From: Pseudomonadota bacterium
GTDB lineage: Bacteria; Desulfobacterota; Anaeroferrophillalia; Anaeroferrophillales; Anaeroferrophillaceae
Direction of reading: 5' to 3'
Length of the DNA stretch: 12,572 nt
NCBI GenBank assembly: GCA_011042595.1
Contig: DQWO01000235.1
Location: 1 to 12,572, forward strand
The notes under the pieces were generated by a model. The model ran no database searches, was not told the origin of the DNA, and was given only the letters and a program-made list of their open reading frames with translations. Positions 2,024 to 12,572 of this stretch are shown one piece after another; position 1 is the first letter of the stretch, and every line of letters begins with the position of its first letter. A program made the position numbers and the translations under genes.

Positions 2024-2240
2024 CTCAACTTTCTGAGTTATGAAAAAAAACAGCCGAAAAAAAATTATTTAAAGGCTGTTCCGGCATGGCTCTCGCTCAT
2101 TCTCGCTGCACATCGTGTGCAGCTGTGAGGTGCCCGCCGCGAAACACCATCGTGGTGATTCGTTCGGCGGTCAATGCCGCTATGAGCCAAGCCCGAACAG
2201 CTTGACAATGTATCCTGAAAGTCCAACTCAGAAAGTTGAG
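2024..2240 (+). mobile_element. Structured MITE-like element, copy 2 (complete, 217 bp)
   Basis: The left end CTCAACTTTCTGAGTT (2024-2039) and the right end AACTCAGAAAGTTGAG (2225-2240) are perfect 16-bp inverted repeats. TATTGA stands directly outside both ends (2018-2023 and 2241-2246), as a 6-bp target duplication would. There is no coding capacity, so it would depend on a transposase encoded elsewhere. The interior is rich in inverted repeats. The outer stem has three blocks: 2076-2081 with 2195-2200, 2083-2085 with 2191-2193, and 2088-2092 with 2184-2188. One inner hairpin is 2105-2112 with 2116-2123. The other is 2134-2139 with 2165-2170, continued by 2140-2143 with 2159-2162 and by CACCA/TGGTG. 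It fills most of the 298-bp gap between the HAD and J-domain genes; the rest of that gap (1953-2017) shows nothing I can name. Confidence 0.9.
2043..2080 (-). terminator. Terminator-like hairpin inside repeat copy 2, minus strand
   Basis: Read on the minus strand, AACAGCC (2080-2074) pairs with GGCTGTT (2055-2049), giving a seven-pair stem with an 18-nt A/T-rich loop. Eight T residues (complement of 2043-2050) follow, two of them inside the stem. The large loop weakens the case. No minus-strand gene reads into it here, so any role would belong to the element rather than to neighbouring genes. Confidence 0.4.
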
Positions 2241-2250
2241 TATTGAGATT

Positions 2251-2553
2251 ATGTCAAACTTTGCTGAGATCCTTCGAGCCAGGAAAGTGCTTGGTCTTGG
2301 TGATCGCATTTCATTAAAAACTCTGCGTGAGCGATATATCCTTCTGGCCAAACGTCTCCATCCTGATGCCGCCAGTCCTGCCGTTGACGGGGATGAAGCT
2401 CCAGCTCTGGCAGAAATCACTCATGCCTACCAGCTGATGGTTTCTTATCTGGAAAATGTCAGCATTTCTTTAACTGATGATGACCTTCGTAAGCAGGACC
2501 CCCAAGCCTTTCATGCTTACCGTTTTAACGACTGGATGGGAGGTAAATCATAA
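2251..2553 (+). CDS. Small J-domain (DnaJ-like) protein
   Basis: A 100-residue protein whose first 70 residues form a J-domain: a helix II-like LKTLRERYILLAKRLHPD with the diagnostic HPD at 37-39, then helix III (ALAEITHAYQLMVSYL). No Gly/Phe region, zinc finger or client-binding domain follows; the C-terminus (DPQAFHAYRFNDWMGGKS) is not recognised. It probably stimulates an Hsp70 ATPase in the cytoplasm; the client is unknown. The Fe-S scaffold upstream invites comparison with HscB, but the HscB C-terminal domain is absent. I chose ATG 2251: the TTG at 2236 lies inside the mobile element's terminal repeat. The ribosome-binding site is weak (GAG at 2245-2247). Only 10 nt separate the element from the start codon, so the leader is essentially element sequence. 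Confidence 0.8.
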   Translation: MSNFAEILRARKVLGLGDRISLKTLRERYILLAKRLHPDAASPAVDGDEAPALAEITHAYQLMVSYLENVSISLTDDDLRKQDPQAFHAYRFNDWMGGKS

Positions 2554-7049: not shown

Positions 7050-7110
7050 TATGAACTCCTGGTGGAGAGCAAAAAAAGAGATTCTTGCTGAATGTCTTTT
7101 AAACTGATAA

Positions 7111-7304
7111 CACAACTTTCTGACTTGTATTACCAAAATATGCTATAAGGATGTTTGAGCTTGGCTTGTAGCGGTATTGGACGCCGAACAAATCACCACG
7201 ACTGATTTGCGGCGTACACCTCGGAGCTGCACACGACGTGCAGCGAGAATGAGCGAAAGCCATGCCGAAATATCCTGTGTTTTTTCATAACTCAGAAAGT
7301 TGAG
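7111..7304 (-). mobile_element. Structured MITE-like element, copy 3 (complete, 194 bp, inverted)
   Basis: The element's left end is at 7304 (AACTCAGAAAGTTGAG at 7289-7304 on the + strand) and its right end is CACAACTTTCTGACTT at 7111-7126, differing at two positions. Exact CTGATAA repeats flank both ends (7104-7110 and 7305-7311), a 7-bp target duplication. The interior is diverged from copy 2 but keeps the same stems, with paired substitutions at 7273/7151, 7268/7156, 7257/7167, 7215/7181 and 7208/7190. The A/T-rich first hairpin of copies 2 and 4 is lost here. It sits between the divergent MBL and isochorismatase-family genes. Confidence 0.9.
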
Positions 7305-7395
7305 CTGATAATAAATGAAGGTAGCTTGGATGAGTGATTGAAGGCGGAAGTTGAATAACACAGCTGAAAAACAATAGTGTTTATGGAGGTTGGAT

Positions 7396-12425: not shown

Positions 12426-12572
12426 CTCAACTTTCTGAGTTATGAAAAGACAGCCGAAAAAAATTATTTAAAGACTGTTCCGGCATGGCTCTCGCTCATT
12501 CTCGCTGCACATCGTGTGCAGCTGTGAGGTGCCCGCCGCGAATCACCGTCGTGGTGATTCGTTCGGCGGTCA
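12426..12572 (+). mobile_element. Structured MITE-like element, copy 4 (left part, runs off window)
   Basis: It begins with the same 16-bp terminal repeat as copy 2 (12426-12441) and matches 2024-2172 closely to the window edge, with a 2-bp length difference. The right end is outside the window. The terminator-like hairpin is kept on the minus strand (12450-12455 with 12473-12478) but needs a G-U pair there; on the plus strand the same position is a C-A mismatch. The inner hairpin CGAATCACC/GGTGATTCG is better paired than in copy 2. It lies upstream of the usp promoter. Confidence 0.88.

Follow-up and report, generated by a model that had tools for sequence, protein, structure and literature searches.

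A three-way-junction core in small mobile elements of the Desulfobacterota whose stem complementarity is probably kept at the DNA level

The MITE analysed here carries an imperfect palindrome of about 130 bp, referred to as the core, in which an outer stem encloses two hairpins. The stems of this core stay complementary while their sequence varies freely, over several bacterial families and several kinds of carrier. We regard it as probable that this complementarity is maintained at the DNA level and not as RNA, whether through selection on the hairpin, through arm-to-arm copying or through both.

Results

The window, that is, the whole stretch of 12,572 nucleotides under analysis, is the entire contig C8 of a draft genome of 1.85 Mb in 370 contigs. 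It contains a MITE copy of 217 bp (2024–2240, forward strand), bounded by 16-bp terminal inverted repeats (TIRs; 2024–2039 and 2225–2240) and flanked by a duplication of TATTGA (2018–2023 and 2241–2246), and a copy of 194 bp on the reverse strand (7111–7304, with its core at 7149–7275), flanked by a duplication of TTATCAG (7305–7311 and 7104–7110). These are the two copies that an earlier note on this DNA had compared as copies 2 and 3, and the TIRs and duplications are present in both. Another copy (12426–12572, forward strand), whose core starts at 12473, is truncated at the contig end. A gene for a small DnaJ-domain-like protein (window 2241–2553) follows the 217-bp copy, its likely ATG (2251) being about 10 bp away; the similarity of the encoded protein lies below the Pfam cut-off.

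Exact duplications of 6–7 bp were found at 16 of 32 TIR-bounded candidates, including both full window copies, and by the exact rule the other 16 had none; the element is 174–238 bp long in 30 of the 32 and contains no transposase gene. With up to two mismatches, the TIR pattern had 129 matches in its own draft genome, compared with a single match for the backwards control, and a similar pattern had 226 matches in the congener G001 (control, 0). The copies studied were drawn from 61 whole contigs of the 370 and some part loci in the former genome, and from 34 TIR pairs in 20 stretches plus some loci, out of the 226 TIR matches, in the latter. By their TIRs, duplications and copy number, these copies are MITEs, short non-autonomous mobile DNA elements. 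A core-less MITE of 81 bp (L204, positions 218–298) also has a perfect 6-bp duplication, which suggests that elements may move without a core.

The three-way-junction core of the 217-bp MITE spans positions 2074–2202 on the forward strand and corresponds to the element singled out in the earlier note. It scored 142.5 bits with R1, a model built from 56 cores of which it is itself one row; a second model, R2, was built from 42 cores including distant ones. All parts of the core are given on the forward strand. The arms of the outer stem S1 (2074–2092, pairing with 2184–2202) close the hairpins H1 (2105–2123) and H2 (2132–2172), and the near-invariant segment CTCATTCTC (2096–2104) sits at the junction, where pairing is possible between its final CTC and the GAG at 2127–2129. 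H1 reads GCTGCACATCGTGTGCAGC here and GCGGCACATCGTGTGCCGC or GCCGGCCGTCCATGGCCGGC in other copies, and its variants in near copies (GCTGCAC/GTGCAGC, GCGGCAC/GTGCCGC and GCCGGCC/GGCCGGC) all pair. Every column of CTCATTCTC reaches at least 95% across 42 cores, distant families included. The sequence of S1 is almost free in the same 42 cores (mean entropy 1.31 bits), and 95.0% of its cells are paired across 91 distant cores. S1 has two conserved mismatches: of 56 near copies, 52 keep the C·C and 50 the A·A. A coding role was discarded on the basis of length: because insert-free cores vary from 127 to 133 bp, they share no common reading frame. Other small palindromes, CTGCCTGTCGGCAGACAGG and GGGGACAG..CTGTCCCC, are nested within the core at L140, L207, L062, L120 and L146, the latter fitting the GGGGWSAS motif given in PMC3733652.

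The cores at 2074–2202 and 7149–7275 differ at 22 positions. The earlier note had described five stem pairs that change on both sides and stay paired, and all five were recovered: C2076–G2200 to A–T, C2081–G2195 to T–A, C2092–G2184 to T–A, C2134–G2170 to A–T and G2141–C2161 to A–T. It was equally right about the single broken pair (G2078–C2198, A·C in the other copy), about the two pairs that become G·T (G2083–C2193 and A2112–T2116) and about the overall shape; when the whole MITE is folded with RNAfold, the forward-strand structure (z −7.5) includes the outer stem and both hairpins, and the opposite strand also folds (z −8.0). Every detail of that observation is therefore confirmed. Further one-sided changes affect G2074–T2202, which is G–C in the second core, and A2144–A2158, unpaired in the first core and T–A in the second. 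When the 22 substitutions were randomly placed on like bases in 20,000 trials, 0.72 compensated pairs were expected, as against the five observed (P = 0.00015).

Covariation was then assessed on copies from the same and from other genomes. Changes on both sides were found for 35 of 41 pairs in 42 cores (334 cells, compared with 75.7 after shuffling), for 36 of 41 in 91 cores (1067 compared with 322) and for 34 of 41 in 15 further cores that had been left out of the model (171 compared with 48.7), although one of these, L400, coincides with the locus of L164, a row of the model. The fraction of paired cells, 95.1% for the 42 cores, 93.0% for the 15 left-out cores and 93–95% over the three sets, fell to 28–45% in each of them when the partner was slid, on alignments that were fitted to the structure and are hence biased towards pairing.

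In a tree-based analysis, changes were mapped onto trees and, for the null expectation, redistributed branch by branch in 300 or 200 runs. Double changes on the same branch numbered 13 in the near set (null mean 1.9, maximum 5), 88 in Desulfurivibrio (3.6, 9), 50 in G304 (2.6, 7) and 67 in G004 (4.4, 10), an excess of 7-fold for the near set and of 15- to 24-fold for the far groups, which recombination between copies, ignored by tree parsimony, could have inflated. The distinct double changes in the far groups were 51 of 88, 39 of 50 and 47 of 67. The near tree set derives from 175 matches, of which 150 were aligned; rows past 133, mostly reverse-strand echoes of the palindrome, were cut, and a filter for unique rows covering at least 115 of the 129 columns left 82. 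The far trees omit one identical row, four gappy rows and the G363 row, as well as pairs formed in less than 70% of the group. Compensation lies far above the shuffled and the tree-null expectation, and the maintenance of the fold across many copies and several bacterial families is strongly supported.

Further occurrences of the core lie in carriers whose ends differ and in additional bacterial families, and several of its hosts are sulfur-cycle bacteria. With the best few candidates per genome scored, R1 had matches in 9 of the 395 genomes sampled across the phylum, its own genome included, and R2 in 14 of 257 genomes of the class of G209, which was taken as Desulfurivibrio alkaliphilus AHT2T; three of these 14 are already among the nine, and the two samples share some genomes. 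Model matches numbered 38 in G209 (25 aligned), 26 in its congener G252 (19 aligned), 39 in G304 (25 aligned), 30 in G004 (21 aligned) and one in G363 (aligned). Copies in G304 have the ends CCTAAG..GCGATT, with 5-bp duplications recognised by eye in several of them, and many Desulfurivibrio copies end near CAGGGCAACGTCAAAGTC. Many copies in G004 have AGCTGTC-like ends of the outer stem, and inspection by eye revealed no common repeat outside the stem in the copies of this genome. Shared positions between D. alkaliphilus and G252 were accepted for two of five candidate pairs, the three others being weaker, which amounts to 2 of 25 aligned copies set against 19 aligned copies. At one pair of loci (L254 and L253), the core lies 3' of a gene that, from its sequence, we take to be metW-like in both D. 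alkaliphilus and G252, and the versions of H1 and of the stem differ.

The carrier designated type ii lacks TIRs and has a left hairpin, GCGGGC..GCCCGC, and a right one, GCCTT..AAGGC. Of 35 left ends, 34 have the motif CYAA ahead of the hairpin, and the motif was present at 20 of the 22 right ends listed, which were retrieved with a pattern that itself contained CTAA. The right part of such an element, with the same core, occupies positions 1–129 of the window (forward strand), comprising a core remnant (1–42) and the right end GCCTTtcaggagtAAGGCACTAA. Three bases separate the end of this element (129) from the start codon of a radical SAM gene (ATG at 133), so that the AGGAG/AAGG bases resembling a ribosome-binding site lie inside the mobile element. 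A core-less short form of a carrier other than that of L204 was observed at L345. Searches of plasmids with a near core and of phages with one D. alkaliphilus core gave no match, seven motif-bearing viral contigs had no model match, and a literature search with most subscription papers outside its reach found no paper describing the core.

A partner transposase was sought through the ends of the elements. Among facing pairs of the window TIRs 0.5–3.5 kb apart, in 61 of the 370 contigs of the same genome taken whole and in part of G001, none had an exact duplication of 6–7 bp, the best agreeing at 5 of 6 positions. One facing TIR pair in G001, suspected of bounding an autonomous element, was in fact formed by two MITEs lying amid ordinary genes. 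The D. alkaliphilus ends had 42 matches (backwards control, 5), with no facing pair 0.3–5 kb apart. Y1 transposase genes are present in the core carriers G001, G002, G209, G252, G304 and G363, and also in four genomes with no core match (G007, G010, G014 and G016); no RAYT (Y1) gene was found in the drafts G000, G004 and G005. A Y1 transposase was rejected as the driver, no such gene having been found in G004, which has 30 cores and is 98% complete. None of 30 Y1 loci contained a Y1 gene bounded by type ii ends; at L388, a lone left-end-like hairpin lies about 0.9 kb from a Y1 frame, with another frame between them. As far as tested, there is no tie between the core and Y1 transposases.

Discussion

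The earlier note had proposed that the fold itself is selected, either as structured RNA or as extruded DNA. The fold is indeed kept in many copies and several families, and it is the RNA half of the proposal that the data disfavour. Were the core a transcribed ncRNA or a cis-regulatory element under selection for its RNA fold, its three-way junction, conserved unpaired segments and strongly covarying helices would be in keeping with that role. A preponderance of G·U over A·C would also be expected, and it was not seen when near or far cells were counted: among 3031 cells of the far cores, taken from S1, H1 and the outer portion of H2, G·T occurs 47 times and A·C 65 times, and the near set has 53 and 48 among 3333 cells, as against 9 and 0 among 168 cells in the acceptor and T stems of a tRNA control (14/16 distinct tRNAs). 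On the trees, one-sided events gave 35 G·T and 44 A·C on near terminal branches, 34 and 57 on far terminal branches and 11 and 12 on far internal branches. The exception is provided by the near internal branches, with 15 G·T and 3 A·C, an excess to be expected of RNA or of a single strand of ssDNA, which speaks against upkeep at the DNA level as the far internal branches do not. A transversion-type double change cannot pass through a G·U intermediate, whereas one of the transition type can. Transversion-type doubles account for 62 of 88 in Desulfurivibrio, 32 of 50 in G304 and 32 of 67 in G004, but in the near set for no more than 3 of 13; the remaining 10 near doubles could have passed via G·U, and this difference from the far groups also counts against a DNA-level explanation. 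The near internal branches and this transition bias are the results that keep the RNA reading alive.

Orientation points in both directions. The near cores are evenly oriented with respect to neighbouring genes (11, 11, 11 and 12, for the 45 of 82 with both neighbours called), which argues against RNA. Cores between tandem genes run along the genes in 14 cases and against them in 3 in G304 (loci L246–L319), and against them in 10 and along them in 3 in the two Desulfurivibrio genomes; these leans favour RNA, and neither is predicted by a pure DNA element. The scarcity of positions shared between D. alkaliphilus and G252 weighs against RNA as well, as does the Rfam search that the earlier note had suggested, which returned no match at E values up to 1 for the window and 10 distant loci. 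On the balance of wobble, orientation and Rfam, a one-strand RNA is disfavoured, and we consider selection on an RNA fold to be improbable.

The earlier note had also warned that template switching can mimic covariation. If a polymerase switched template and copied arm onto arm, the covariation would be a by-product of quasi-palindrome correction and the fold would be unselected. In three sets, double changes do affect adjacent pairs at roughly double the expected frequency (11 compared with 5.3, 13 with 7.1 and 10 with 5.3; P = 0.008, 0.011 and 0.026), although exchange between copies could also produce such clusters; the far groups contain many doubles of the transversion type; and at L163 both conserved S1 mismatches have been made complementary, along with one compensated pair. 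Template switching has been reported (PMC8794818) to give rise to RNA hairpins and to preserve them, with an enrichment of multiple compensatory changes, and by analogy with those hairpins the clustered doubles and L163 may be taken as marks of arm copying. Copying alone, however, explains neither the near-invariance of CTCATTCTC across families nor the persistence of the C·C and A·A mismatches in most near copies while neighbouring pairs undergo double changes. Nor was any spacer inversion found in 30 aligned MITE copies, because the interior keeps a single orientation relative to the flanks in all of them. We therefore judge correction without selection to be rather unlikely as the whole explanation. 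A further possibility is that the outer stem derives from the target DNA, in which case the inner part would have been inserted into the loops of differing pre-existing hairpins. Most of the G004 copies shown do have an outer stem of their own around a conserved inner part. Against this, stems within a genome share their length and their ends (AGCTGTC in many G004 copies, GGGCCGC in many from Desulfurivibrio), like-flanked copies differ by compensated changes within the stem, and the core-less forms resemble interior deletions, all of which makes insertion into pre-existing hairpins very improbable.

For the favoured explanation, that stem complementarity is kept in DNA, the following mechanism can be envisaged. 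The MITE in the window would move through a transposase acting on its TIRs, and its palindrome would form a hairpin or a cruciform when the DNA is single-stranded, during replication or transposition. Complementarity would be upheld by the loss of copies that are unable to fold and also by copying between the arms, and the conserved junction CTCATTCTC would be a putative recognition site for a factor. More tentatively, the core might be a three-way-junction DNA module that is recognised in its folded form by a factor and has been repeatedly acquired by unrelated non-autonomous transposons across the Desulfobacterota; the outer stem, free in sequence and bound to complementarity, might then be the DNA counterpart of RNA covariation, a suggestion we hold just as tentatively.

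Comparison with known systems reveals likenesses and differences. The type ii carrier, which we take from its features to be IS200/IS605-like, resembles non-autonomous elements of that type in lacking TIRs and in having hairpins near both ends together with CYAA, and differs in that its ends bound no Y1 gene in the 30 Y1 loci. The core shares covarying helices and a conserved junction with the structured RNAs of Rfam, but matched none of them at E up to 1 in the window or in 10 distant loci and has no consistent wobble preference. Bacterial MITEs, including RUP, NEMIS, ERIC and Nezha (PMC3733652) and QMITE2 (PMC10969869), are likewise short, TIR-bounded, duplication-flanked, multicopy, non-coding and foldable. 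What sets the present family apart from them is the recurrence of one folded core across different ends and distant families, with an outer stem that is free in sequence yet complementary. The REP/BIME/REPIN sequences and their RAYTs, as described in PMC3733652, PMC2817692 and PMC3116915, are also palindromic repeats with many copies per genome; the core differs from them in its size of about 130 bp and its three-way junction, and no Y1 genes were found in G004 or the draft G000.

Covariation is usually taken as proof of a functional RNA; this core family shows strong covariation in what appears to be mobile DNA. The family also suggests simple tests that set selection on RNA against upkeep at the DNA level, namely the balance of G·U and A·C, that of transition- and transversion-type compensation, and the clustering of double changes. 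If the junction is indeed recognised as folded DNA, this would point to a factor common to unrelated small transposons.
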